This document shows positions 42,915-57,072 of a stretch of DNA of 64,000 nt, piece after piece; the stretch's first letter is position 1; the number at the start of each line of letters is the position of its first letter. Source of the stretch: Bradyrhizobium sp. 190 (GTDB lineage: Bacteria; Pseudomonadota; Alphaproteobacteria; Rhizobiales; Xanthobacteraceae); contig NZ_JADPJL010000047.1 of NCBI RefSeq assembly GCF_023073415.1, positions 1 to 64,000 of the forward strand. The letters run 5' to 3'. The notes beneath the pieces are model-generated. The model had not been told where the DNA came from. It searched no databases and saw only the letters and a list, made by a program, of their open reading frames with translations. The position numbers and the translations under genes are program-made.

Positions 42915-43550
42915 TCAACCCCCGTCCAGCGCCGCCAGCCGTTCTGCCTCGGCGATGTCATCCACGGTGTTGGCGTTGAAAAACGGATCGAGCGGTTCGA
43001 CCGGCCACGTCACGGTGGCGAGTTTGTAGCGCGCGGTCCAGCGGTCGATCTTCCTGACGTCTTCGACGACAAGCGCGTGACGCAGCTCTTCGCGCAAGCC
43101 GACGCTCCATAGTCCGATCACCGGATGCGACTGTCCATCGGAGGCGGCGACGGCAAGCTCGGCCTTCTCCGCTTCGAGCGCAGCCTGCAGCCGCGACACC
43201 AGATCGCGCGGCAGGAAGGGGCAGTCGGCGGCGGCGCTGAGAACGAGTTTTACATCTGGCCGGTTGGCCGCAGCCCAGTCGAGCGCTGCGAGGACACCGG
43301 CGAGCGGACCGGGAAAATCCGCAACGCCGTCAGCGACGACTGGCAATCCGAACGCCGCAAAGCGCGCAGGATCGCCATTGGCGTTGAGGATGAGGCCGTC
43401 GCATTGCGGTTTCAACCGCGCGATCACGCGGTCGAGGATGGTGCGATCGGCAATGGTGCGCATCGGCTTGTCGCCGCCACCCATCCGTCGCGCAAGGCCC
43501 CCGGCGAGCAGCACGCCGGGAATTTTGACGGTCCCCGTCGCGTCAGTCAT
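42915..43550 (-). CDS. mobA: MobA, molybdenum cofactor guanylyltransferase
   Basis: The protein has 211 residues from ATG 43550 (an earlier start at 43595 lies in fdhD). The GTP-binding motif is [20 protein letters not shown]. The active-site Asp lies in [14 protein letters not shown]. The C-terminus has [16 protein letters not shown]. MobA transfers GMP to molybdopterin to form the bis-MGD cofactor needed by formate dehydrogenase. It overlaps fdhD by 8 bp, so the two are cotranscribed. Confidence 0.92.
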
Positions 43551-44430
43551 CGCTTTCACCCTTGCGCTTGTGCCGCGCGGATTCTTCCTCGACATAGTCG
43601 AGGTTCTGGTCGAACACGATCCGCTCCTGTCCCGACAGCGCGATGAAGCGTTTTCCCCGCGTGCGGCCGACCAGCGTCAGCCCGACCTGCCGCGCCAGCT
43701 CGACGCCCCACGCGGTGAAGCCAGAGCGCGAGACGAGAATGGGGATACCCATCCGCACCGTCTTGATCACCATCTCCGAAGTAAGGCGGCCGGTGGTGTA
43801 GAGGATCTTGTCGGCGGGATCGACGCCGTGGCGATAGATCCAGCCTGCGATCTTGTCGACCGCGTTATGGCGGCCGACGTCCTCGGTGTAGCACACCGGC
43901 GTGCCTTCCTTGCACAGCACGCAGCCATGGATCGCGCCGGCTTCCAGATAGAGCGAGGGCATGGTGTTGATCGCGTGCGTCATCTGGTAGAGCCAGGACG
44001 TGCGCAATTCCGCCTTTGGCAGCGCCACGCTTTCGACCGCTTCCAGCAGATCGCCAAATGCTGTGCCCTGCGCACAGCCCGAGGTTTGCGTGCGCTTCTT
44101 CAGTTTTGCCTCAAAGTTGGTGTGGTGCTCGGTGCGCACTACCACCACCTGAAGGTCGTCGTCATATTCGACCTCGGTGACGACGTCGTCGTATTTCAGC
44201 ATGTTCTGGTTCAGGAGATAGCCGAGCGCGAGGTATTCCGGATAGTCGCCGATCGTCATCATGGTGACGATCTCCTGGGCGTTCAGGTACAGCGTCAGCG
44301 GCCGCTCCACCGGCACCCTGATCTCGACGGCGGCGCCGGCCTGGTCGGTCCCGGCGACGCGCTCGGTCAGCCGCGGATCCTCGGGATTCGGCACGATCAG
44401 GGGGGCGGGGGCTTTCTCGATTTTCATCAT
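43543..44430 (-). CDS. fdhD: FdhD, sulfur transferase for formate dehydrogenase
   Basis: The protein has 295 residues. It contains the FdhD hallmarks [35 protein letters not shown] and [20 protein letters not shown]. FdhD moves sulfur from IscS to the molybdenum centre. The usual Cys-x-x-Cys pair of the active-site loop reads [11 protein letters not shown] here, so the second Cys is missing. A separate CVLC occurs at about 168. It is divergent from mobB with a 92-bp gap. Confidence 0.9.
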
Positions 44431-44522
44431 GTCCGCAGGTTAGCATGACAATGGCTGTCAGCCGATATAAAGCACCTTTGGAGAATGCCTAGCCCGGTCC
44501 GGCCAGGACAGCGGAGAATGCG

Positions 44523-45050
44523 ATGAAAGTAATAGGCCTCGCGGGATGGAGCGGCGCCGGCAAGACCACCTTGCTGACGCGGGTGATCCCGCAATTGCAG
44601 AAACGGGGCCTGCGCGTATCCGTGATCAAGCACGCCCATCACGCCTTCGATGTCGACGTGCCCGGCAAGGATTCCTGGAAGCATCGCGAGGCCGGTGCGG
44701 CCGAAGTCCTGGTGTCGTCCAGCCAGCGCTGGGCCCTGATGCACGAGCTGCGCGGGGCCCGCGAGCCGCGGCTGCCGGAACTGCTGGCAAAGATGTCGCC
44801 GGTCGATCTCGTCGTCGTCGAGGGTTTCAAGCGCGAGCCGCACCGCAAAATCGAGATTTATCGCGCCGCGAATGAAAAACCGCTGCTGTTCCCCGACGAT
44901 CCCGGCATTGTCGGCATCGCGACCGATACGGCGGTTGAAACCACGCTGCCGACCGCCCATCTCGACGATATCGAGGCGGTGGCGGCGATGATGCTGAAAT
45001 CGGCGATATCGCTCGAGGACGTGCTGGCGAAATGCGAAGCTGAGGGCTGA
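44523..45050 (+). CDS. mobB: MobB, molybdopterin-guanine dinucleotide accessory GTPase
   Basis: The protein has 175 residues. The P loop is at the start (GLAGWSGAGKTTLLTRVIP), and the conserved HAHHAFDVDVPGKDSWKHR and VVVEGFKREPHRKIEIYR follow. MobB assists MobA. The moeA gene begins 8 bp downstream. It is divergent from the fdhD-mobA pair. Confidence 0.93.
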   Translation: MKVIGLAGWSGAGKTTLLTRVIPQLQKRGLRVSVIKHAHHAFDVDVPGKDSWKHREAGAAEVLVSSSQRWALMHELRGAREPRLPELLAKMSPVDLVVVEGFKREPHRKIEIYRAANEKPLLFPDDPGIVGIATDTAVETTLPTAHLDDIEAVAAMMLKSAISLEDVLAKCEAEG

Positions 45051-45058
45051 TCAGGCAC

Positions 45059-46312
45059 ATGGCGCAATTGTCCGACGATTGCTTTGCCTTCGGCGGGCCG
45101 ATGATGTCGGTCGATGAGGCCGTGGGCCTCATTGCGACGCGCGTGACGCCGGTCGTGGATGTCGAGACGGTCATGCTTGCCCGCGCCGATGGCCGCATTC
45201 TCGCGCACGATATTTTGGCGCCGCTGCCGCTGCCACCCTTCACCAATTCCGCCGTCGACGGCTATGCGGTTTCGAGCCGCGACCTGCCGCAAAAGGAAGA
45301 ACAGGCATTTCCGGTGATCGGCCGCGTTCAGGCGGGTAGCTCCACGCCTGCGCCGCTCAAGCCGGGGCAGGCGGTGCGCATCTTTACCGGCGCGCCTATG
45401 CCCGAAGGCGCCGATACTGTGTTTATGCAGGAAGACGTGCGCGTTGACGGCGAGGAGGTCGTGCTTCCTGCGGGCCTGAAGCCCGGCGCCAATGTGCGGC
45501 CCGCGGGCGAAGACATTCCGTCAGGCTTTGCGGCGCTGCAGGCCGGCCAGCGGCTGCGGCCGCAGGATGTTGCGCTTGCCGCGGCCTTCGGCCTGACAGA
45601 GCTCGATGTCGTCAGGCGCCTTCGCATCGCCGTGTTCTCCACCGGCAACGAACTGGCGTCGCCGGGCGAAGCGCGCGCCACGGCGCAATTGTTCGATTCC
45701 AACCGTTTCATGCTGATGGCGATGCTGTCGCGGCTCGGCTGCGAGGTCAGCGATCTCGGCATCCTCAGGGACGACCGCGCCGCGCTCGCGCGCGCCCTGC
45801 AAGACGTGGCCGGCACCCACGACCTGATCCTCACCACCGGCGGCGTTTCGACCGGCGAGGAGGACCACGTCAAGGCGAGCGTCGAAAGCGTCGGCAGGCT
45901 GGTGCTGTGGCGGATGGCGATCAAGCCGGGGCGCCCCGTCGCGATGGGCATCATCGGCGGCACGCCTTTCATCGGATTGCCCGGCAATCCGGTGGCGAGT
46001 TTTGTCACCTTCGTTCACGTGGTGCGCCCCACGATCCTGGCGCTGTCAGGTGCGCGGCCGGAGCCGCTGATGCCGATGCCGGTTCGCGCCGCCTTCAGCT
46101 ACAAGAAGAAGATCGCGCGCCGCGAATATGTTCGCGTCAACCTGCGCAAGGCGGCGGACGGCGCGCTCGAAGCGGTGAAGTTTCCGCGCGAAGGTGCGGG
46201 CCTGTTGTCTTCGCTGGTCGATACCGATGGCCTGGTCGAACTCGGCGAACAGGTGACGCTGGTCGAGCCCGGCCAGACGGTCGGGTTTCTGTCTTATGCA
46301 GGTCTGATCTAG
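45059..46312 (+). CDS. moeA: MoeA, molybdopterin molybdenumtransferase
   Basis: The protein has 417 residues. It has the full MoeA set: PPFTNSAVDGYAVSSRDL, RIFTGAPMPEGADTVFMQED, RIAVFSTGNELASPGEA, TTGGVSTGEEDHVKASVE and GLPGNPVASFVTFVHVVRP. It ligates molybdate into molybdopterin. This is the conventional paralogue, while two others lie at 37682 and 38805. It follows mobB and is probably in the same transcript. Confidence 0.95.
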   Translation: MAQLSDDCFAFGGPMMSVDEAVGLIATRVTPVVDVETVMLARADGRILAHDILAPLPLPPFTNSAVDGYAVSSRDLPQKEEQAFPVIGRVQAGSSTPAPLKPGQAVRIFTGAPMPEGADTVFMQEDVRVDGEEVVLPAGLKPGANVRPAGEDIPSGFAALQAGQRLRPQDVALAAAFGLTELDVVRRLRIAVFSTGNELASPGEARATAQLFDSNRFMLMAMLSRLGCEVSDLGILRDDRAALARALQDVAGTHDLILTTGGVSTGEEDHVKASVESVGRLVLWRMAIKPGRPVAMGIIGGTPFIGLPGNPVASFVTFVHVVRPTILALSGARPEPLMPMPVRAAFSYKKKIARREYVRVNLRKAADGALEAVKFPREGAGLLSSLVDTDGLVELGEQVTLVEPGQTVGFLSYAGLI

Positions 46313-46316
46313 GAAT

Positions 46317-46442
46317 GTAGGGTGGGCAAAGGAGCGTCAGCGACGTGCCCACCATCTATCATCTGGCGCGCTTCTAGATGGTGGGCACGCTTCCGCCTTC
46401 GCTCTTCGAGCTACGGCGGACAAGTCGCTTTGCCCATCCCAC
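46317..46442. repeat. Composite inverted repeat
   Basis: The outer arms GTAGGGTGGGCAAAG (46317-46331) and 46428-46442 pair at 13 of 15 positions. Inside them a perfect 14-bp stem GTGCCCACCATCTA (46345-46358 and 46375-46388) is found. This is a typical dispersed repeat of this group. It fills the gap between moeA and the TusA-like gene. Confidence 0.7.
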
Positions 46443-46487
46443 GGACCGTCCGTTGACGAAGCAGTTCTGCTTCGCCATGGTCGGCGC

Positions 46488-46739
46488 ATGACGACGACAA
46501 AACTCGATCTTGCCGGGCTGAAATGCCCGCTTCCGGCGTTGAAGACGCGCAAGGCGCTGAAGACATTACCGCCCGGCGACAGGCTGGAAGTGCTCTGCAC
46601 GGATCCGCTGTCGGTAATCGACATCCCGAATCTCATTCGCGAGACCGGCGACAAGGTCGAAATCACCGAGCGCAGCCAGGACCGTATCGTGTTTTTGATA
46701 GAGAAAACAGCAGGTTCCGTGGAAAAGGCAAATGCCTGA
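46488..46739 (+). CDS. TusA/SirA-family sulfur carrier
   Basis: The protein has 83 residues. The Cys-Pro-x-Pro box is near residue 12 (GLKCPLPALKTRKAL), and the fold continues with LCTDPLSVIDIPNLI and a short end. TusA proteins carry persulfide to tRNA or to molybdoenzymes. The nearness of fdhD and FDH suggests sulfur supply for cofactor sulfuration. It stands alone with the TCS genes 87 bp downstream. Confidence 0.88.
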   Translation: MTTTKLDLAGLKCPLPALKTRKALKTLPPGDRLEVLCTDPLSVIDIPNLIRETGDKVEITERSQDRIVFLIEKTAGSVEKANA

Positions 46740-46825
46740 GCGGGACGGCTGGGGCAAAATCCTTGCTCGTCAATTAGACGACCGAGCGATTGCCGGGTGC
46801 GACATTCGGTCCTAGAAACCCCGGC

Positions 46826-48259
46826 ATGAACTTCCCGACATCGAAGGCGAGCGCAGCGGTATCCCCTGCCACGATCAATGAACCTGCGGCAAAACTCGGC
46901 AAACCGGCCGGCAGCCCCGAGTTCAGCGCGCTGGCGCAGGCCTCGATCCTGATCGTCGATGACGAGCCCGGGATGCGCAATTTTCTCGTGCGCACGCTGG
47001 GGCCGCGCTGCAAGCATGTGGCGGAGGCGGCCGACACCGACGAAGCCTCGCGCCTGCTCGACAAGAGCCGATTCGACGTCGTCATCCTCGACAACATCAT
47101 GCCGGGCAAGAATGGCGTCGACTGGCTCGCCGAGCAGCGCGCCGTCGGCTTCTTTGCCGACGCCATCCTCATCACCGCCTATGCCGATCTCGACACCGCC
47201 ATTCAGGCGCTGCGCGCCGGCGCGGTCGATTTCGTGCTGAAACCGTTCCGCTCTAACCAGATCTTGAACGCGGTGGCGCGTTGTCTGGACCGGGTCCGGT
47301 TGCAGCGCGAGAATTATGTGCTGCGCTATGCGCTGCGCGCTTCCTCCGATCGCACGTTCCTGCGCGACAATCTGATCGGGACGTCACCGGCGACCCGCGG
47401 CGTGCGGGAAACCATTGCCCGCGTCGCCCGCCTTCCGACATCAATCCTGCTCACCGGCGAATCCGGAACCGGCAAGGAAGTCGCGGCGCGCTCGATTCAT
47501 TCGCTGTCCGATCGCGCTGACAAGCCCTTCGTGCCGGTCAACTGTGCTGCGATTCCGCCCGAGATGATCGAGGCCGAACTGTTCGGCCACATCAAGGGAG
47601 CCTTCACCGGCGCAGACAGCGGGCGCGAGGGCCTGTTTCTCTATGCGCATGGCGGCACGCTGTTCCTGGATGAAATCGGCGAACTGCCGCTGCCGATGCA
47701 GAGCAAGTTGCTCCGCGTTCTGGAGGATCGCCGCGTTCGTCCCGTCGGCTCCGAGCGTGAGGTGCCGGTTGATCTTCGCCTCATCTTTGCGACCAATGCC
47801 GATCTGCAGAAGGGAGTAGAGAAGGGGCGCTTTCGGGCCGACCTCTATTATCGCCTGAACGTCATGCAGATTCATCTGCCGCTGCTGAAGGATCGCGGCG
47901 ACGACGTGCAGGAACTCGCCGCGATCTTCATGAACAAGCTCTCGATACAGCTCGGTATGCCGCCGGTTGCGATCGGCAGCGCGGTCCGCGCCGCATTGGC
48001 AAGTTACGACTGGCCGGGCAATGTGCGGGAGCTACGCAATCTGATCGAACGCACGCTGATCCTCGGCGCGTTCCCGGACGATTTCGCCGGGCCGCGAAGC
48101 GATGGCCAGCCGGCCGCCGCCGATAGCCTGGCCGATCTGGAGCGCCGGCACATTCTTTCTGTCCTGAAAGAAACCGGCGGCAACCGTGAGGAAGCCGCGC
48201 GCCGGCTTGGAATCTCGCGCAAGACCATCGACCGCAAATGCGCGCTATGGAATGTCTGA
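46826..48259 (+). CDS. Sigma-54-dependent NtrC-type response regulator
   Basis: The protein has 477 residues from ATG 46826 (GTG 46790 possible). A receiver domain (SILIVDDEPGMRNFL, phospho-acceptor Asp in VVILDNIMPGKNG) is followed by the AAA domain with ILLTGESGTGKEVAARS and the sigma-54 loop IKGAFTGADSG. A Fis-type HTH is at the end (NREEAARRLGISRKTIDRK). It should activate the sigma-54 promoter at 50368, downstream of its kinase gene. It overlaps the kinase gene or ends 14 bp before it, depending on the kinase start. Confidence 0.9.
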   Translation: MNFPTSKASAAVSPATINEPAAKLGKPAGSPEFSALAQASILIVDDEPGMRNFLVRTLGPRCKHVAEAADTDEASRLLDKSRFDVVILDNIMPGKNGVDWLAEQRAVGFFADAILITAYADLDTAIQALRAGAVDFVLKPFRSNQILNAVARCLDRVRLQRENYVLRYALRASSDRTFLRDNLIGTSPATRGVRETIARVARLPTSILLTGESGTGKEVAARSIHSLSDRADKPFVPVNCAAIPPEMIEAELFGHIKGAFTGADSGREGLFLYAHGGTLFLDEIGELPLPMQSKLLRVLEDRRVRPVGSEREVPVDLRLIFATNADLQKGVEKGRFRADLYYRLNVMQIHLPLLKDRGDDVQELAAIFMNKLSIQLGMPPVAIGSAVRAALASYDWPGNVRELRNLIERTLILGAFPDDFAGPRSDGQPAAADSLADLERRHILSVLKETGGNREEAARRLGISRKTIDRKCALWNV

Positions 48260-48272
48260 GCGGGCAGGCAGC

Positions 48273-50276
48273 ATGAACGAGCCGGCGCGCGGGCGCTCCG
48301 TTCGTTTTCGGCTGCTGGCGATCGCGCTGCTGCCCATGCTGGTCATCCTGCCGCTGCTGCTCGGGGTCGCCATTTATCGCTGGAATGCGAGGTTCGACGC
48401 CACGCTGATTTCGAAGGTGAATGGCGATCTCACCATCGCGCATCAGTATCTGGCCCGCATTCTGGAAAAGACCGGCGTTCAGATCCGCGCACTCGGCCTC
48501 TCCGCCCGCTTCCGCGATGTGGAAGAGCACGATCCGCTGTCCGCCGTGGCCGACCTGCTCGAAACTTCCCGCAAGGAGCTCGGTCTCGACTTTCTCTATC
48601 TGATGGACTCGAGCGGAAAGATCCTCGCCTCGTCACCCGCGTTTCCGGGACGGCCAAAGCGCGATTGGCCGATCATTACTTCGGCGTTGTCGGGGGAAGC
48701 GCCGTCCGCCGGCATCGACATCTTCACCAATGACGAGCTCGCGGCGATTTCGCCCGCGCTTGCCGAACGTGCGCGCCTCGATCTGGTGCCGACGCCGAAC
48801 GCGGTGCCGACCGATCGCAGCACGGAAACGCACGGCATGGTCGTGCATGCGGCGAGCCGGGCGACGACCCCTGGGGGAGCGCCGGCTGCGTTGGTCGGGG
48901 GCATTCTGCTCAATCAGAATCTGGAGTTCATCGATACGATCAACGACCTCGTCTACCAGTCGGCCAGCCTCCCGGAGGGCAGCCAGGGAACGGCGACGCT
49001 GTTTCTGGACGACGTGCGGATTTCGACCAACGTCCGCCTGTTCGAGGGACGGCGCGCGCTGGGGACGCGGGTATCGGCAGCGGTCCGCTCTGCAGTGATG
49101 GGTGAGGGACGCACCTGGCTAGACAGCGCGTTCGTCGTCAACGACTGGTACATTTCAGCCTACGAGCCGCTCGTCGACAGCTATGGCAAGCGCGTCGGCA
49201 TGCTCTATGTCGGGTTTCTGCAGAAACCGTTCAACGACGCGAAGTTTGAGACGCTCCTGATTATCGCGCTCGCATTCATCGTGATCACGGCAGCAACCGT
49301 GCCGATCTTCCTGCGCTGGGCGCAGTCGATATTCATGCCTCTCGAACGCGTCACGACGACGATCGGCGAAGTGGAGAGTGGCAATCTGTCCGCCCGCACC
49401 AAATTGCCGGCGTCGGGCGACGAGATCGGCCGCGTGGCGTTTCACCTCGATACCCTGCTCGACCAGATCCAGGAGCGCGACCGGCAATTGCGCGAGTGGA
49501 ACGAGGAGTTGAATACGCGGGTCCGCGAGCGAACCAGGGATCTCGAGCATGCCAATCTGAAGCTGGAGGCGACTACCAAGCAGCTCATCATGTCCGAGAA
49601 GCTCGCCGCGATCGGCGAAATTACCGCCGGCGTGGCGCATGAGATCAACAATCCGATCGCGGTGATGCAGGGCAACCTCGACGTCATCCGCAGCGTGATC
49701 GGCGACGAGGCCGACAAGGCCAAGGTCGAGTTCCGCCTGCTGGATGAGCAGATTCACCGCATCAGCCAGATCGTCATGAAGCTGCTCCAGTTTGCGCGAC
49801 CGGAGGAATACGCCGGCTATATCGAGCGCCACGCGCCGGGGAGCGTCGTTCAGGATTGTTTGCCGCTGGTCCAGCATCTCCTGAACAAGACTGAAATCAG
49901 GGTAGTGAGAGAAGATCGGGCGAGCCGCCTGGTCCTGATGAATCGCACCGAGCTTCAGCAGGTGGTGATCAATCTGATCGTCAACGCCATCCATGCCATG
50001 CCCGACGGCGGCACGCTGGCACTCCGCTCGTTCGACGCCGATCGCGACGGCAACGCGGGCATTTCAGTAGAAGTGGCCGACACCGGCATCGGCATGAACG
50101 CGGATGTCATGGACAAGGTGTTCGATCCCTTCTTCACGTCGAAACGCCGGGAAGGCACCGGCCTTGGTCTGTCCATCAGTCAGACGCTGGTGAAGCGCCA
50201 ACGCGGCCATATCACTGTCGAAAGCCGGATCGGCGCGGGGAGCACATTCCGCGTATGGCTGCCGGAAGCGAGCTGA
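48273..50276 (+). CDS. Sensor histidine kinase with periplasmic sensing domain
   Basis: The protein has 667 residues from ATG 48273 (ATG 48252, overlapping the regulator stop, is the alternative). Membrane segments lie at about 15-35 and about 322-345, enclosing a large Cache-like sensor (YLMDSSGKILASSPAFPG). A HAMP domain (ERVTTTIGEVESGNLSART), the His box (GEITAGVAHEINNPIAVMQG) and the ATP site (ADTGIGMNADVMDKVFDPFF, GTGLGLSIS) follow. The likely signal is a small carboxylate such as formate or oxalate, inferred from the downstream carrier. Confidence 0.88.
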   Translation: MNEPARGRSVRFRLLAIALLPMLVILPLLLGVAIYRWNARFDATLISKVNGDLTIAHQYLARILEKTGVQIRALGLSARFRDVEEHDPLSAVADLLETSRKELGLDFLYLMDSSGKILASSPAFPGRPKRDWPIITSALSGEAPSAGIDIFTNDELAAISPALAERARLDLVPTPNAVPTDRSTETHGMVVHAASRATTPGGAPAALVGGILLNQNLEFIDTINDLVYQSASLPEGSQGTATLFLDDVRISTNVRLFEGRRALGTRVSAAVRSAVMGEGRTWLDSAFVVNDWYISAYEPLVDSYGKRVGMLYVGFLQKPFNDAKFETLLIIALAFIVITAATVPIFLRWAQSIFMPLERVTTTIGEVESGNLSARTKLPASGDEIGRVAFHLDTLLDQIQERDRQLREWNEELNTRVRERTRDLEHANLKLEATTKQLIMSEKLAAIGEITAGVAHEINNPIAVMQGNLDVIRSVIGDEADKAKVEFRLLDEQIHRISQIVMKLLQFARPEEYAGYIERHAPGSVVQDCLPLVQHLLNKTEIRVVREDRASRLVLMNRTELQQVVINLIVNAIHAMPDGGTLALRSFDADRDGNAGISVEVADTGIGMNADVMDKVFDPFFTSKRREGTGLGLSISQTLVKRQRGHITVESRIGAGSTFRVWLPEAS

Positions 50277-50278
50277 CC

Positions 50279-50315
50279 GGACATTTTGTCCAAGGCGCGT
50301 CCGGACATTTTGTCC
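50279..50315. promoter_or_regulatory. Tandem enhancer-like palindromes GGACATTTTGTCC
   Basis: Two identical 13-bp palindromes (50279-50291 and 50303-50315) lie 24 bp apart, two helix turns, just after the kinase stop codon. They precede the sigma-54 promoter by about 55-90 bp. I infer binding sites for the NtrC-type regulator at 46826. Confidence 0.75.
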
Positions 50316-50367
50316 ATGGCTGCGAGAATCCCTCCACTAAGTGATTGATTTTCCGTATCGCGCCATT

Positions 50368-50383
50368 TGGCACGCGGATTGCT
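50368..50383 (+). promoter_or_regulatory. Sigma-54 promoter TGGCAC-N5-TTGCT
   Basis: TGGCAC at 50368-50373 and TTGCT at 50379-50383 have the exact -24/-12 spacing of RpoN promoters. Transcription would start near 50395, giving a leader of about 265 bases before the OFA carrier gene. An NtrC-type regulator is encoded just upstream. Confidence 0.8.
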
Positions 50384-50660
50384 GTCCCTCCAACCTAAGA
50401 GTTGAAATGGGGAGGGGGCGCGATGGCCGGATGTTCGGTCGCAAAGGGGGCGACAGCGCGAGCGAAGTCGTTCGCTGCTTGCGTCTTCCTGACGCGCTCG
50501 CACCGCACTCAAAACGATTTTGCCTCGAGACCAACTCCGATCGGTCGCGTGTGCGCCACACGTGCACGCACAGCGATCGGCGTTTCGCGGCTCACCTCAC
50601 GCAATTCCCCAACTTTCCAACCGATGTGCCGGTAAGGCCACGAACCCGGAGGTTTTTTCT

Positions 50661-52313
50661 ATGAGCACTGCCGATGTCACTCTTGCACCATCAGGTGCGC
50701 TCGGACTCCTTGACAAGGAGCGAACAATCGCAACCGCCGGCTTCAATCGCTGGCTGGTGCCTCCGGCGGCGCTTTGCATCCATCTCTGCATCGGCATGGC
50801 CTATGGCTTCAGCGTGTTCTGGCTGCCGCTGTCGCGCGCGCTCGGGATGAGCGCGCCGAAGGTATGCTCCGACATGACGCTGGTGCAGGAACTCTTCACC
50901 ACCACCTGCGACTGGAAGGTCGCCAGCATGGGCTGGATGTACACGCTGTTCTTTGTGCTGCTCGGTATTGCCGCCGCGGTGTGGGGCGGCTGGCTCGAGC
51001 GCGTCGGCCCGCGCAAGGCGGGCTTCGTCTCGGCGCTGTGCTGGTGCGGTGGCCTGTTCCTCGGCGCGATCGGCATCTACACGCATCAGCTTTGGTTGCT
51101 GTGGCTCGGCTCGGGCGTGATCGGCGGCATCGGTCTTGGTCTCGGTTACATCTCGCCGGTGTCGACGCTGGTGAAATGGTTCCCTGACCGCCGCGGCATG
51201 GCGACCGGCATGGCCATCATGGGTTTTGGCGGCGGTGCCATGATCGGCGCGCCGCTGGCGAACCTGCTGATGAACTATTTCAAGTCGCCGACCTCGGTCG
51301 GCGTCTGGGAAACCTTCGTCGCAATGGGCGTCATCTATTTCGTGTTCATGATGATCGGCGCGTTCCGCTATCGCATTCCGCCGGCCGGCTGGCGGCCCGA
51401 GGGCTGGACGCCGCCGGCAAAAGCCAATGCGATGATCTCGCAGAACCACGTTCATCTGAAGGACGCGCACAAGACGCCGCAATTCTGGCTGATCTGGTGG
51501 GTGCTCTGCCTCAACGTGTCGGCGGGCATTGGCGTGATCGGCATGGCTTCGCCGATGCTGCAGGAAATCTTCGCCGGCAAGCTGATCGGATTGCCCGACG
51601 TCGGCTTCAACCAGCTCGACGCCACGCAGAAGGCGACGATCGCCGGCATCGCGGCCGGCTTCGCCGGACTGCTCTCGCTGTTCAACATCGGCGGCCGCTT
51701 CTTCTGGGCGTCGCTGTCGGACAAGATCGGCCGCAAGAACACCTATTATACGTTCTTCATCCTCGGCATCGTGCTCTACGCGCTGGCGCCGACCTTCGCC
51801 GCGATGGGTTCGAAGCTTTTGTTCGTGCTCGGCTTCGGCATCATCCTGTCGATGTATGGCGGCGGCTTCGCCACCGTGCCGGCCTATCTCGCCGACATGT
51901 TCGGCACCCAGTTCGTCGGCGCGATCCACGGCCGTCTGCTGACGGCCTGGTCGACGGCTGGCATCATCGGTCCCGTGGTCGTGAACTACATCCGCGAGTT
52001 CCAGCTTGCCGCCGGCGTTCCGCGCGACCAGCTCTACAACACCACGATGTACATCCTGTGCGCCATGCTGATCGCGGGCCTGATCTGCAACTACCTGATC
52101 AAGCCGGTCGATAAAAAATGGCACATGAGCGATGCCGAGGTCGCCAAGCTGCAGGCGGCAACGGCGACCGCGGGGGCATCGGGACCGTCGGGCTCCTATG
52201 GCATCGGATTTGGCGGGCTCGACGCCAAGGCCGCGCTGTTCTGGGCGTTTGTCGGCACCCCGCTGGCCTGGGGCGTGTGGAAGACGCTGGAAAGCGCCGT
52301 CAAGATACTTTGA
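50661..52313 (+). CDS. OFA-family MFS carrier (oxalate:formate antiporter-like)
   Basis: The protein has 550 residues from ATG 50661, preceded by GGAGGT. Upstream in-frame codons are not used. About 12 membrane helices are present, with the MFS loop WFPDRRGMATGMAIMGFGGG and the second-half motif LSDKIGRKNTYYTFFILG. The first half includes an extra loop with Cys (SDMTLVQELFTTTCDWKVAS). OFA carriers exchange oxalate for formate or take up small carboxylates. Formate dehydrogenase genes follow, so oxalate or formate import is the best inference. A sigma-54 promoter precedes it. Confidence 0.85.
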   Translation: MSTADVTLAPSGALGLLDKERTIATAGFNRWLVPPAALCIHLCIGMAYGFSVFWLPLSRALGMSAPKVCSDMTLVQELFTTTCDWKVASMGWMYTLFFVLLGIAAAVWGGWLERVGPRKAGFVSALCWCGGLFLGAIGIYTHQLWLLWLGSGVIGGIGLGLGYISPVSTLVKWFPDRRGMATGMAIMGFGGGAMIGAPLANLLMNYFKSPTSVGVWETFVAMGVIYFVFMMIGAFRYRIPPAGWRPEGWTPPAKANAMISQNHVHLKDAHKTPQFWLIWWVLCLNVSAGIGVIGMASPMLQEIFAGKLIGLPDVGFNQLDATQKATIAGIAAGFAGLLSLFNIGGRFFWASLSDKIGRKNTYYTFFILGIVLYALAPTFAAMGSKLLFVLGFGIILSMYGGGFATVPAYLADMFGTQFVGAIHGRLLTAWSTAGIIGPVVVNYIREFQLAAGVPRDQLYNTTMYILCAMLIAGLICNYLIKPVDKKWHMSDAEVAKLQAATATAGASGPSGSYGIGFGGLDAKAALFWAFVGTPLAWGVWKTLESAVKIL

Positions 52314-52534
52314 TGACGGAGGACGCCGCGGGGCCGCCAGTCAGCGTATCCCGCGGCACCTTCACCCGGGTTCCGCGCAGCGATCGATGCGTCTTCGCAA
52401 TCGCAGCATGGGATGGCTTTATTGATCTTGCCGTCATTTCGCGGTCTCATTCGTGTAGACAGCGGGCGTGGGTCGAGAGCGGTGATTCCGCGGTCCCGCT
52501 CAAGTAAATCCTTGCCACAGCCTCATAATTCGCT

Positions 52535-52571
52535 TGGCATCTGGTATGCCAGAGATTAGAGTCGATCTAAT
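52535..52571. promoter_or_regulatory. Two palindromes upstream of formate dehydrogenase
   Basis: TGGCAT-CTGGT-ATGCCA (52535-52551) and ATTAGA-GTCGA-TCTAAT (52555-52571) lie 27-63 bp before the fdsB-type start codon. The first resembles a LysR-type box. The 220 bp between them and the carrier gene hold no gene. A promoter for fdsB should be here. No sigma-54 site is visible. Confidence 0.5.
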
Positions 52572-52597: not shown

Positions 52598-54310
52598 ATG
52601 AATGTCCATGACGTACAAACGGTCCGTGCGTTCGAACATCCGGGCGCGGGACGGAAGCGGGCCAAGGCGACCCCCAAGGGGCGCCAGGTTGACCCCACCG
52701 CCGCCCACGAGATCGAGCTTCTGCTCGGCGAGCGGCCGCGGCGGCGCGATCTCCTGATCGAGCACCTGCACCTGATCCAGGACAAGTATCGCCAGATCTC
52801 GGCGGCGCATCTCGCAGCGCTGGCCGACGAGATGAAGCTGTCATTTGCGGAAGTATTCGAGACCGCGACCTTCTACGCGCATTTCGACGTGGTGAAGGAA
52901 GGCGAGCCTGATATCGCGCCGCTGACCATCCGCGTCTGCGACTCACTCACCTGCGCCATGATGGGCGCGGAAAAGCTGCTTAGCGAATTGCAGGACAAGT
53001 CCGGCCCTGGCATTCGCGTGGTGCGCGCGCCCTGCGTCGGATTCTGCGATAGTGCCCCGGTCGCCGAAGTCGGACACCGCTATGTACTCAATGCGACTTC
53101 GGCCGAGGTCCTCGATACCGCGGCGCGGGGCGAGACCCATCCAATCATCCCGTCCTACGTCGATTACGAGACCTATGTCAGCGAGGGCGGCTACAAGCTG
53201 CTTAGTGACTTGCGTGCGGGGCGGATCAGCAAGGAAGACATTCTCAAAGTTCTGGACGACTCCAGCCTGCGGGGGCTCGGCGGCGCCGGCTTTCCCACCG
53301 GCCGCAAATGGCGGGCAGTGCTGGGCGAGCCGGGTCCCCGGCTGATGGCCGTCAATGGCGACGAGGGCGAGCCCGGCACGTTCAAGGATCGCTTCTATCT
53401 GCTCCGCGACGTTCACCGTTTCCTCGAAGGGACGTTGATTGCGGCGCATATCATCGACGCGGAGGACGTCTACATCTATCTGCGTGACGAATATCCTGCC
53501 GCGCTCAAGCTGCTTCCGCTCGAGATTGCCAAGCTGCCCGCAGGCGGTCCGCGAATTCACATGCGTCGCGGCGCTGGCGCCTATATCTGCGGCGAGGAGT
53601 CCGCGCTGCTCGAGAGTCTTGAAGGCAAGCGCGGCTTGCCGCGGCACAAGCCACCCTATGCGTTCCAGGTCGGCCTGTTCGGCCTGCCGACGCTCATCAA
53701 CAATGTCGAGACTTTGTTCTGGGTGCGCGACATCGTTGAGAAAGGCTCCGACTGGTGGAAGAGCCACGGCCGCAACGACCGTGTCGGGCTGCGCAGCTAC
53801 TCGGTCTCTGGGCGCGTCAAGAATCCCGGCGTCAAGCTGGCACCGGCGGGTGTCACGGTGCGCGAACTGATTGACGAATTCTGCGGCGGCATGGCGGATG
53901 GACACACCTTCCACGCTTACCTGCCGGGCGGCGCATCGGGCGGCATCCTGCCAGCGTCGATGGACAACATCCCGCTCGATTTCGGCACGCTGGAAAAATA
54001 CGGCTGCTTCATCGGTTCCGCCGCCGTCGTCATCATGTCCGAGCAGGACAGCGTGAAGGGCGCGGCGCTGAACCTGATGAAATTCTTCGAAGATGAGAGC
54101 TGCGGCCAGTGCACCCCGTGCCGCGTCGGCACCCAGAAGGCGGCGATCCTGATGGAAAAGCCGGTCTGGGATCGCGAGTTGCTCGACCAGTTGAGCCAGG
54201 CGATGCGCGATGCCTCGATTTGCGGGCTTGGACAAGCCGCCTCGAATCCGCTGACGTCAGTGATCAAATATTTTCCGGAAGAGTTCGTGCCGAAAGAGGC
54301 TGCGGAATGA
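52598..54310 (+). CDS. fdsB: NAD-dependent formate dehydrogenase, beta (flavoprotein) subunit
   Basis: The protein has 570 residues. A NuoE-like part (about 30-180) binds [2Fe-2S] with CDSLTCAM and CVGFCDSAP. A NuoF-like part follows with LRGLGGAGFPTGRKW (NADH/FMN), GAYICGEESALLES and the [4Fe-4S] cysteines ESCGQCTPCRVGTQ (about 500). This fused layout matches the beta subunit of tungsten or molybdenum formate dehydrogenase 1 of Methylobacterium. It passes electrons from formate to NAD. It overlaps the alpha gene by 4 bp (ATGA). Confidence 0.9.
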   Translation: MNVHDVQTVRAFEHPGAGRKRAKATPKGRQVDPTAAHEIELLLGERPRRRDLLIEHLHLIQDKYRQISAAHLAALADEMKLSFAEVFETATFYAHFDVVKEGEPDIAPLTIRVCDSLTCAMMGAEKLLSELQDKSGPGIRVVRAPCVGFCDSAPVAEVGHRYVLNATSAEVLDTAARGETHPIIPSYVDYETYVSEGGYKLLSDLRAGRISKEDILKVLDDSSLRGLGGAGFPTGRKWRAVLGEPGPRLMAVNGDEGEPGTFKDRFYLLRDVHRFLEGTLIAAHIIDAEDVYIYLRDEYPAALKLLPLEIAKLPAGGPRIHMRRGAGAYICGEESALLESLEGKRGLPRHKPPYAFQVGLFGLPTLINNVETLFWVRDIVEKGSDWWKSHGRNDRVGLRSYSVSGRVKNPGVKLAPAGVTVRELIDEFCGGMADGHTFHAYLPGGASGGILPASMDNIPLDFGTLEKYGCFIGSAAVVIMSEQDSVKGAALNLMKFFEDESCGQCTPCRVGTQKAAILMEKPVWDRELLDQLSQAMRDASICGLGQAASNPLTSVIKYFPEEFVPKEAAE

Positions 54311-57072
54311 CCAAGATCAAGTTCGAACTCGACGGCAAGCAAGTCGAGGCCAACGCGGGCGAGACTATCTGGCAGGTGGCAAAACGCCACCAGAAGGAAA
54401 TCCCGCATCTCTGCTATTCGCCTGAGCCTGACTACCGGCCTGACGGCAATTGCCGCGCCTGCATGGTCGAGATCGAGGGCGAGCGCGTGCTGGCGGCGTC
54501 CTGCAAGCGAACGCCAAGCGTCGGCATGAAGGTGAAGACCGAGAGCGCCCGCGCGGTCGCCGCGCAGAAGATGGTGATGGAATTGCTGGTCGCCGACCAG
54601 CCGGCGCGCGAGACCTCGCACGATCCCGATTCGAAGTTCTGGCACTGGGCCGAGAAGGTCGAGGTGACCGAGAGCCGTTTCCCGGCCGCCGAGCGCTGGC
54701 AGGGCGACACCAGCCATCCCGCGATGAGCGTCAATCTCGATGCCTGCATCCAGTGCGGCCTCTGCGTGCGCGCCTGCCGCGAGGTGCAGGTCAACGACGT
54801 CATCGGCATGGCCTATCGCAGCCACGAAGCCAAGATCGTGTTCGACTTCGACGATCCCATGGGTGAATCTACCTGCGTCGCCTGTGGCGAATGCGTGCAG
54901 GCCTGTCCGACCGGCGCTCTCATGCCCTCGGTGATGCTGGACGAGAACCAGACCCGCGTGACCTATGCCGACAAGAAGGTGGACTCGCTGTGCCCGTTCT
55001 GCGGCGTCGGCTGTCAGGTCACCTATCAGGTCAAGGACGAGAAGGTCATCTACGCCGAAGGCCGCGACGGCCCGGCCAACCACAACCGTCTCTGCGTCAA
55101 GGGCCGCTTCGGCTTCGACTACATCCATCATCCGCATCGGCTGACAAAACCGCTGGTGCGGCTGCCGAATGCGAAGAAGGACGCTAACGACCAGGTCGAT
55201 CCGGCCAATCCGTTCACGCATTTCCGCGAAGCCTCGTGGGAAGAAGCGCTGGATATCGCCGCCAAGGGCCTCGTCAAGATCCGTGACGAGAAGGGCGTCA
55301 AGGCGCTGGCCGGTTTCGGCTCCGCCAAAGGCTCGAACGAAGAGGCGTATCTGTTCCAGAAGCTGGTGCGCACCGGCTTCGGCTCCAACAATGTCGACCA
55401 CTGCACGCGGCTGTGCCACGCTTCATCAGTGGCCGCGCTGATGGAAGGGTTGAACTCGGGCGCGGTGTCGGCGCCGTTTGCGGCGGCGATGGACGCCGAA
55501 GTCATCATCGTGATCGGCGCCAACCCGACCGTGAACCATCCGGTTGCCGCGACCTACATCAAGAACGCAGCCAAGCGCGGCGCCAAGCTGATCGTGATGG
55601 ATCCGCGCCGGCAGTCGCTGTCGCGCCACGCCTGGCGGCATCTGGCGTTCAAGCCCGGCAGCGACGTCGCGATGCTGAACGCGATGCTCCACACCATCAT
55701 CACCGAAGGGCTGACCGACCAGCAATATATCGCGGGCTACACCGAAGGTTTTGATGAACTCGCCGAGCGCATCAAGGATTTCCCGCCGGAGAAGATGGAA
55801 GCGATCTGCGGCATTCCCGCAGAGACGCTGAAGGAAGTCGCGCGGGTCTATGCCCGCTCGCAGTCCTCGATCATCTTCTGGGGCATGGGCATCAGCCAGC
55901 ACATCCACGGTACCGATAACGCGCGCTGCCTGATTGCGCTGGCGTTGACGACAGGCCAGGTCGGCCGTCCCGGCACCGGCCTGCATCCGCTGCGCGGCCA
56001 GAACAACGTGCAGGGCGCTTCCGACGCCGGCCTGATCCCGATGTTCCTGCCGGACTATCAGCCGGTCGGGCGCACCGATCTGCGTGAGCCCTTTGAAAAG
56101 CTCTGGCATCAGGACCTCGATCCGGTGCGCGGGTTGACCGTTGTCGAGATCATGAACGCGATCCACGCCGGCGAAATCACCGGCATGTATATCGAGGGCG
56201 AAAACCCTGCGATGTCCGACCCCGATCTGCAGCACGCGCGCGGTGCGCTGGCGATGCTCGATCATCTGGTCGTGCAGGATCTTTTCGTCACCGAAACCGC
56301 GTTCCATGCCGACGTGATCCTGCCGGCCTCGGCTTTTGCGGAGAAGAGCGGCACCTTCACCAACACCGACCGCCGCGTGCAGCTCGCGCGCGAGGTGATC
56401 CGGCCGCCGGGTGACGCGCGGCAGGATCTCTGGATCATCCAGGAGATCGGCAAGCGCATGGGCCTGCCCTGGAACTATGACGGTCCGGCCGATGTGTTCA
56501 CCGAGATGACGCAGGTGATGCCGTCGCTGAACAACATCACCTGGGACCGGCTGGTGCGCGAGGGCGCGGTGACCTATCCGGTCGACGCTTCGGACAAGCC
56601 CGGCAACGAGATCATCTTCACCACGGGTTTCCCGACCGCGAGCGGCCGCGGCAAGATCGTGCCGGCCAAGGTGATCGCCCCCGACGAGGTGCCCGACACC
56701 GAATATCCGATGGTGCTGTCGACGGGCCGCGTGCTCGAACACTGGCACACGGGGTCGATGACTCGCCGCGCCAGCGTGCTCGACCAGATCGAGCCGGAGG
56801 CGGTGGCATTCATGTCGCCAAAGGATATGCGGCGCCTCAGCGTATGGCCCGGCGATTTCATCCGCCTGGAAACCCGCCGCGGCGCCGTCGAGGTCAAGGT
56901 GCGCTCTGACCGCGACGTGCCGGAGAACATGGTGTTCATGCCGTTCTGCTACGCGGAGGCGGCAGCAAACCTGTTGACCAACCCGGCGCTCGACCCGTTC
57001 GGCAAGATCCCCGAGTTCAAGTTCTGCGCCGTGCGCGCGGAGAAGGTGGAATTGCAGTCGGCGGCGGAGTAG
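54307..57072 (+). CDS. fdsA: Formate dehydrogenase, alpha (Mo/W-bisMGD) subunit
   Basis: The protein has 921 residues from ATG 54307. An N-terminal [2Fe-2S] domain (CYSPEPDYRPDGNCRACMVE), two [4Fe-4S] motifs (CIQCGLCVRACREVQ, CVACGECVQACPTGAL) and the cofactor cluster motif CPFCGVGCQVTYQV precede the catalytic core. The catalytic residue is a Cys, in CTRLCHASSV at about 370, not selenocysteine. C-terminal molybdopterin motifs are present (NTDRRVQLAREVIRPP). Formate is oxidised in the cytosol. FdhD, MobA and MoeA nearby make and mature its cofactor. Confidence 0.93.
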   Translation: MTKIKFELDGKQVEANAGETIWQVAKRHQKEIPHLCYSPEPDYRPDGNCRACMVEIEGERVLAASCKRTPSVGMKVKTESARAVAAQKMVMELLVADQPARETSHDPDSKFWHWAEKVEVTESRFPAAERWQGDTSHPAMSVNLDACIQCGLCVRACREVQVNDVIGMAYRSHEAKIVFDFDDPMGESTCVACGECVQACPTGALMPSVMLDENQTRVTYADKKVDSLCPFCGVGCQVTYQVKDEKVIYAEGRDGPANHNRLCVKGRFGFDYIHHPHRLTKPLVRLPNAKKDANDQVDPANPFTHFREASWEEALDIAAKGLVKIRDEKGVKALAGFGSAKGSNEEAYLFQKLVRTGFGSNNVDHCTRLCHASSVAALMEGLNSGAVSAPFAAAMDAEVIIVIGANPTVNHPVAATYIKNAAKRGAKLIVMDPRRQSLSRHAWRHLAFKPGSDVAMLNAMLHTIITEGLTDQQYIAGYTEGFDELAERIKDFPPEKMEAICGIPAETLKEVARVYARSQSSIIFWGMGISQHIHGTDNARCLIALALTTGQVGRPGTGLHPLRGQNNVQGASDAGLIPMFLPDYQPVGRTDLREPFEKLWHQDLDPVRGLTVVEIMNAIHAGEITGMYIEGENPAMSDPDLQHARGALAMLDHLVVQDLFVTETAFHADVILPASAFAEKSGTFTNTDRRVQLAREVIRPPGDARQDLWIIQEIGKRMGLPWNYDGPADVFTEMTQVMPSLNNITWDRLVREGAVTYPVDASDKPGNEIIFTTGFPTASGRGKIVPAKVIAPDEVPDTEYPMVLSTGRVLEHWHTGSMTRRASVLDQIEPEAVAFMSPKDMRRLSVWPGDFIRLETRRGAVEVKVRSDRDVPENMVFMPFCYAEAAANLLTNPALDPFGKIPEFKFCAVRAEKVELQSAAE

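Follow-up and report, generated by a model that had tools for sequence, protein, structure and literature searches.

A two-component system of the NtrC type that senses formate appears to drive an OFA-family carrier from a sigma-54 promoter with upstream activator sites (UAS) and an IHF box in the window, the whole 64,000-nucleotide stretch of Bradyrhizobium sp. 190 DNA that was analysed; judging from sequence comparison we give this reading a probability of roughly three in four. In this scheme periplasmic formate would bind the Cache sensor of the kinase through R249, T252 and T265, the kinase would phosphorylate the NtrC-type regulator encoded alongside, and dimers of the regulator would occupy, with their Fis-type HTH, a pair of GGACA-N3-TGTCC sites whose separation is about two turns of the helix. 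IHF would bend the DNA near -50, the AAA+ ring would open RNA polymerase-sigma-54 at TGGCAC-N5-TTGCT, and the OFA carrier, once made, would supply formate for the formate dehydrogenase-type enzyme whose genes lie downstream. We infer the binding of regulator and IHF, the phosphotransfer, the ligand, the transport substrate and the start site. The core idea of a preliminary description of this DNA, that a sigma-54 promoter links the two-component system to the carrier, is partly supported and appears to hold by position, co-occurrence and recurrence; the IHF box, a probable ligand, a corrected label for the carrier and a wider regulon are added to it here.

Promoter layout and its recurrence

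The kinase gene ends in a TGA at 50274-50276, just 5' of the distal of two putative enhancer sites, each a GGACATTTTGTCC palindrome (GGACA-TTT-TGTCC). The distal site lies at 50279-50291 and the proximal site at 50303-50315, 24 bp away from centre to centre, and both fall between the kinase and carrier genes. So does the predicted sigma-54-type -24/-12 element, TGGCACGCGGATTGCT, at 50368-50383 on the plus strand, where TGGCACgcggaTTGCT (TGGCAC-N5-TTGCT) is matched with 0 mismatches. The RpoN consensus match and the palindromes 24 bp apart near the end of the kinase gene had both been pointed out in the preliminary description, and both were recovered. By convention, the GG and GC of a -24/-12 element are placed at -25,-24 and -13,-12, so the start site would fall at about 50394 and the centres of the enhancer sites near -109 and -85. 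The spacing had been called shorter than in most enhancer systems, which we do not uphold, since centres at about -85 and -109 do not look exceptional and PspF with IHF at psp is similar. As a candidate sigma-54 promoter, the region has a -24/-12 element and, as sequence, upstream activator sites in the form of two recurrent palindromes. Between enhancers and promoter, at 50338-50350 on the minus strand, lies AATCAATCACTTA, a perfect match to the IHF consensus (WATCAAN4TTR) that was absent from the preliminary description; 1 such match was found in the 64-kb window against 0.68 expected.

The genome search for the palindrome proposed earlier was run and returned the exact form twice in 8.6 Mb, both copies at the carrier promoter. 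At up to 3 mismatches the palindrome was found 14 times in the window against 12 expected from shuffles, neither rarer nor commoner, and the -24/-12 box at up to 1 mismatch was found once in 64 kb against 2 expected, so that the box alone is not beyond chance. It is the recurrence of the layout that argues for a real promoter. The own genome holds only one such promoter at up to 3 mismatches and the fixed spacing of the window; a fixed-spacing search with mismatches misses promoters that are spaced differently, as in one relative (G030) where it found none, yet one is present at 66 bp.

The kinase was found at E 1e-60 or better in 19 of 80 genomes, the own genome and 79 relatives, own included. 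Each of the 16 loci L008-L023, which represent the own kinase and 15 orthologues from the genus, carries a pair of palindromes that deviate from GGACA-N3-TGTCC by no more than 1 mismatch apiece, followed by TGGCAC-N5-TTGCT, directly past the kinase stop; the distance between the palindromes is 33 bp in L021. Degenerate or partial versions were found at two loci from other families (L024, L026), and at L025 the promoter was present twice, at other genes. A strict pattern search in the genus matched 53 of 195 genomes, own included, with 1 match for the reversed control; in one matching genome (G186) the spacer differs and the match may be chance. Of the 48 genomes G000-G047, 17 have the kinase, and 14 of these match the strict pattern vs 0 of the 31 without the kinase (Fisher p 1.4e-9, shared ancestry ignored); the three kinase genomes that lack it have proximal sites 1-2 bases off. 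Class-wide, the strict pattern was found in 3 of 289 genomes (the own genome, L208 and L209), and it is therefore specific but too strict for a census.

A wider set comprised 80 loci picked by two peptide patterns in the sensor, which are therefore no random sample, together with 6 annotated plasmid loci. At up to 2 mismatches, 91 promoters were found in 68 of these 86 loci, 71 of them remaining after removal of near-copies, and 18 loci had no promoter at that limit; L186 and L187 (Paracoccus, beside FDH-N) and L189 had none even at 4 mismatches. The calls at L145, L148, L150, L154, L157, L175 and L181 are doubtful. The distal palindrome is present in 70 of the 71 non-redundant promoters: 68 have it 20-24 bp and 2 have it 42-43 bp from the proximal palindrome, and 1 promoter lacks it. 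The distances are roughly multiples of a helical turn. In the Thalassospira-type loci (L144, L148, L150, L154) the palindromes stand 42-43 bp apart vs about 22, about two helical turns more. When the distance from palindrome start to -24 element was taken over 14-200 bp, the 205 pairs (near-copies included) formed two narrow peaks, one of 92 pairs at 64-68 bp and the other of 87 pairs at 86-92 bp; together these hold 179 pairs, and 26 lie elsewhere.

Scrambled palindromes served as controls for the real motif. With up to 1 mismatch in total, it gave 72 matches vs 0 in each of five scrambled palindromes; with up to 2, 92 vs 0, 3, 0, 0 and 8; with up to 3, 96 vs 2, 7, 2, 0 and 15; and at 4 mismatches 110 vs 16, 37 and 14, the controls rising as the limit was loosened. 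Over 44 offsets and two strands, 61 IHF matches (up to 1 mismatch) were counted in the 71 promoters, of which 55 cluster on the minus strand between offsets -29 and -32; no fewer than 16 of the 71 promoters must therefore be without an IHF box of this quality in that position. With an IHF box at a fixed place, the promoter has the classic UAS-IHF-promoter layout.

The regulator, the kinase and the probable ligand

The regulator gene lies at 46790-48259 on the plus strand (start codon uncertain) and encodes a receiver, an AAA+ sigma-54 interaction domain and a Fis-type HTH (Pfam Response_reg 6e-23, Sigma54_activat 3e-69, HTH_8 2e-12), the three domains of an NtrC-type regulator, which bears out the NtrC-type activator named earlier as the partner of the kinase. 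Among the 25 of 111 NCBIfam models listed, none reached its cut-off; the best-scoring of those listed was AtoC (374 bits, cut-off 714), and the NtrC equivalog model gave 365 for a cut-off of 559. The HTH segment LGISRKTIDRK is largely kept in the regulator homologues.

The sensor histidine kinase, at 48273-50276 on the plus strand, combines a periplasmic Cache sensor with HAMP, HisKA and HATPase domains (Pfam sCache_3_3 2e-29, HAMP, HisKA, HATPase_c). In a sequence search of the PDB with the sensor, only 8py0 and 8py1 fell below E 0.001, as they did with a 32-row profile (3e-4 and 1e-4, respectively), and the titles of both entries read 'in complex with formate'. Fold comparison of the sensor with 8py0 and 8py1 gave 2.5 Å over 148/157 and 134/156 residues. 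R142, T145 and T158 of PacF are reported to affect formate binding (PMC12501870), an sCache_3_3 domain with the reported residues is described as having formate as its ligand (PMC12415202), and R115 is described in Atu0526, a formic acid receptor (PMC8698456). R249, T252 and T265 of the kinase, putative formate-binding residues within the codons at 49017-49067 on the plus strand, have the spacing of the PacF residues (0, +3, +16), which is visible in the alignments to both 8py0 and 8py1. All 92 kinase rows in which this segment is covered show the R-x2-T-x12-T spacing; two of these rows (L026 and L066) are one gene of G058. As a control, 17 sCache_3_3 domains were collected in 21 relatives: 13 have the triad spacing, namely the five kinases of this family and eight shorter proteins, and the four without it all come from G052, so the triad marks a large subset of sCache_3_3 and not every member. 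As a candidate sCache_3 formate sensor, the domain shows kinship in sequence to formate-bound structures and has the R/+3 T/+16 T arrangement.

The predicted structure of the sensor has a mean pLDDT of 82.5, with a mean of 67 for the triad stretches and values under 50 for residues 218-222. The model looks like a tandem Cache with the formate-type module second, the extra module being missing from the formate-bound single-Cache chains. Judged by fold only, DctB, LuxQ and amino-acid receptors equal or outscore these chains. We rejected the fold search as ligand evidence, as no more than 2 Z units separate the 50 entries listed; 8py0 and 8py1 are not among the 50 Foldseek matches listed, an absence that is uninformative. 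Since many Cache chains tie by fold, the ligand call rests on sequence and residues, and these suggest that the kinase probably detects formate outside the cell.

Several further sensors and kinases came to light. On contig C1 the own genome has a second sCache_3_3 domain (1043494-1043814, L222), which lies in an open frame of 620 aa and shows the R-x2-T-x12-T spacing too; the protein may be a formate chemoreceptor. Kinase homologues at E 1e-100 or better occur on 94 plasmid records, 47 of them from Pseudosulfitobacter. The kinase of L189, the one of these plasmid loci that was looked at closely, may be an orphan, as a regulator homologue was not found at that locus. In Rhizobium sp. RCAM05350 (L163, 7593-11000) the regulator and kinase homologues come in several pieces, which suggests broken frames or sequencing errors, and the kinase of a bin labelled Arenimonas (L159) groups with that of Ciceribacter (path about 0.10), perhaps a mis-binned contig.

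The carrier, its neighbours and related loci

The carrier gene (50661-52313, plus strand) starts with an ATG at 50661 that is preceded by GGAGG and encodes an OFA-family MFS protein, the proposed formate (monocarboxylate) carrier. The OFA tail domain NF047966 scored 34.6 for a cut-off of 24, and the best model, NF049980 (SfMCT L-lactate transporter), narrowly missed its cut-off with 318.6 bits vs 320. The oxalate/formate antiporter model TIGR04259 gave 130.9 bits vs a cut-off of 335, so that the earlier label 'oxalate/formate carrier' lacks precision. The genome has a TIGR04259 member over the cut-off on another contig than the window (C1:561677-562897, 651.5 bits), 5.6 kb from an oxalyl-CoA decarboxylase that scores over its own cut-off. 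Because the carrier is below the TIGR04259 cut-off and the antiporter lies near an oxalyl-CoA decarboxylase elsewhere, formate is a better guess for the substrate than oxalate, and the protein is probably a small-acid carrier for formate.

A 5' leader of about 267 nt is predicted at 50394-50660 on the plus strand, its start deduced from the position of the -24/-12 element, in agreement with the length of about 265 bases given earlier. By eye, the leader differs between relatives in the genus, and it matched no Rfam family at the gathering score, the one match (E 0.78) being below it. A regulatory RNA was rejected on these two counts, and for the same reasons the leader adds no evidence. A sigma-70 promoter or terminator was also rejected, the counts being near those of shuffles.

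Downstream of the carrier, a gene at 52598-54310 on the plus strand encodes an FdsGB-like fused NuoE/NuoF-like subunit of a formate dehydrogenase-type complex (Pfam Complex1_51K, 2Fe-2S_thioredx, NADH_4Fe-4S); it is a neighbour that may belong to the regulon, and it adjoins the carrier in G058 (L066) too. It is followed at 54307-57072 on the same strand by an FdsA-like molybdopterin catalytic subunit (Pfam Molybdopterin 4e-74 and partner domains). At 52534-52553, about 45 bases 5' of the FdsGB-like gene, we noted an inverted repeat, TTGGCATCTGGTATGCCAGA, which looks like a separate operator, perhaps of the LysR type. Genes for FdhD (43543-44430, minus strand; Pfam FdhD-NarQ 1e-74), MobB (44523-45050; Pfam MobB 3e-52), MoeA (45059-46312; Pfam MoeA_N 3e-47) and a TusA/YedF-like protein (46488-46739; TusA and YedF models below their cut-offs) make 43543-46739 a maturation neighbourhood. 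The arrangement with FdsGB-like and FdsA-like genes behind the carrier and the FdhD, MobB and MoeA genes at the other flank is seen in relatives as well as in the window.

Nineteen loci were of the window type (18 Bradyrhizobium and 1 Pseudolabrys bin) and 61 were not. An OFA gene is present in 19/19 of the former and 45/61 of the latter, FdsA- or FdhD-like genes in 18/19 and 27/61 (some FdsA-like matches are YdeP-like); 10 of the 61 have neither in the covered flank, and two of these ten (L165, L171) carry an NAD-dependent formate dehydrogenase (NAD-FDH) homologue. A Rhizobium plasmid and a Shinella plasmid have the order regulator, kinase, OFA carrier, and in Methylorubrum CM4 the OFA gene is ahead of the regulator-kinase pair. 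In Azospirillum ramasamyi and Paracoccus alcaliphilus the pair lies beside FDH-N genes; in Azospirillum, two palindromes at a distance of 22 bp lie upstream of a TGGCAC element whose first base is 54 bases ahead of the fdnG start, and no such promoter site was found in the stretch covered in Paracoccus. In a gammaproteobacterial bin (L179) the promoter stands before an NAD-FDH gene (655 bits, cut-off 329), and at L165 a homologue occupies the corresponding position. Molybdopterin domains are common to the FdsA-like and FDH-N subunits; NAD-FDH belongs with the 2-hydroxyacid dehydrogenases. The NAD-FDH family is not known to need a metal. As far as these gene assignments go, formate is the common denominator of the predicted targets. 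ABC-transporter genes are preceded by such a promoter at three loci; in L139 (707), L164 (538) and L152 (1647) it was seen upstream of a periplasmic-binding-protein gene that is ahead of the regulator and kinase, the protein being a Peripla_BP_6 in L139 and the gene beginning about 520 bases further on in L152.

In a quick tree of the kinases (13 near-duplicate rows removed from 93), twelve formed one branch with an SH-aLRT of 100; the labels 'ofa' and 'fdhN_or_none' in that tree are approximate and carry no weight here. Its members come from Bradyrhizobium, Rhizobium, Mesorhizobium, an unplaced Rhizobiales genome and three gammaproteobacterial bins (loci L057-L065, L096-L104, L165-L173 except L167 and L169, L179 and L180). 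Promoters of this branch lie within about 420 nt before genes for DnaK, ClpB, GroEL, Hsp20 and DUF308 proteins, and likewise before SOD-like (below cut-off), Dyp peroxidase, FdhF/YdeP-family and NAD-FDH genes. Several copies surround the paralogous regulator genes, and L059 has one before the regulator itself. In this branch, chaperone genes may be controlled by sigma-54, which would, to our knowledge, be unusual. Tentatively, we propose an undescribed family of NtrC-type systems that sense periplasmic formate, are widespread in Alphaproteobacteria, are wired to carriers and to differing formate dehydrogenases and have a DNA code of their own (GGACA-N3-TGTCC twice, IHF and sigma-54 at near-fixed spacing), with one branch recruited to a chaperone, acid and oxidative-stress island. 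If true, formate would be a signal for protein quality control through sigma-54.

Alternative explanations and known systems

The promoter and regulator might be as described and the signal be another small carboxylate (lactate, pyruvate or oxalate) or weak-acid stress, the carrier moving that compound, which we consider unlikely. The carrier does score nearest to the L-lactate transporter model; on the other side, an antiporter over the TIGR04259 cut-off and an oxalyl-CoA decarboxylase lie elsewhere in the genome. The promoters before ABC-transporter genes at three loci and those of the paralogous branch at chaperone, DUF308 and YdeP-like genes would also suit a different signal; against them stand the formate-binding Cache triad, constant in every kinase row that covers it, and the formate dehydrogenases, two unrelated kinds included, that recur as neighbours of the system or behind its promoter.

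That the palindromes belong to a DNA-binding protein other than the adjacent regulator, for example a repressor of the carrier, is conceivable in that GGACA-N3-TGTCC would suit further dimeric regulators, but it is much less probable, since their distance to the sigma-54 element is nearly constant and an IHF box lies in between, and since they co-occur with the kinase and reappear around the paralogous regulator genes, in L059 before the regulator itself. Least credible of all is a chance origin of the elements, or that they are terminator-like repeats where the kinase gene ends. Neither the -24/-12 box by itself nor the loosely matched palindrome is rarer than chance in 64 kb, but the layout recurs over 71 non-redundant promoters, no scrambled palindrome produced a match at up to 1 mismatch where the real one produced 72, and the three terminator-like sites found all lie elsewhere. 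A formate-sensing system acting on the carrier promoter through the adjacent regulator is the reading that we prefer.

In a survey, formate dehydrogenases already figure among the molybdo-enzymes under sigma-54 regulation, with enrichment in groups to which alphaproteobacteria belong (PMC12316311); its promoters for them are predicted, and the passages compared here give neither a regulator nor a ligand or enhancer motif. Among the top matches listed in literature searches that covered few subscription journals, none dealt with a histidine kinase that senses formate or with this NtrC-type regulator. The present reading joins regulator, ligand, DNA site and target in one testable prediction, and the system could be used as a formate sensor part.

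FhlA, the activator of the E. coli formate regulon, is sigma-54-dependent and acts from upstream sites with IHF, and it senses intracellular formate itself, without a kinase. The likeness to it lies in a sigma-54 activator that would respond to formate and switch on formate metabolism with IHF, whereas here a periplasmic Cache kinase is paired with a receiver-type regulator, and the formate hydrogenlyase activator model gave 242.5 vs a cut-off of 830. DctB-DctD and AtoS-AtoC are carboxylate systems in which a Cache-type or membrane kinase is paired with an NtrC-type regulator; DctB heads the list of fold matches and AtoC is the best-scoring NCBIfam model listed, but the present proteins are not members of the AtoS-AtoC pair, with AtoC at 374 vs 714 and AtoS at 184 vs 646 bits. 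At psp, the enhancer sites lie close to the promoter, and PspF, unlike the present regulator, has no receiver domain. Enhancer sites near the promoter together with IHF, for which PspF at the psp promoter is cited (PMC7175178), are shared with the window, but PspF is negatively regulated by PspA (PMC7057263). PacF, 8py0 and 8py1 resemble the kinase in the sensor module and in the R-x2-T-x12-T spacing (PMC12501870); these and Atu0526 are described as chemoreceptors (PMC12501870, PMC8698456), whereas here the sensor sits on a histidine kinase and has an extra module.
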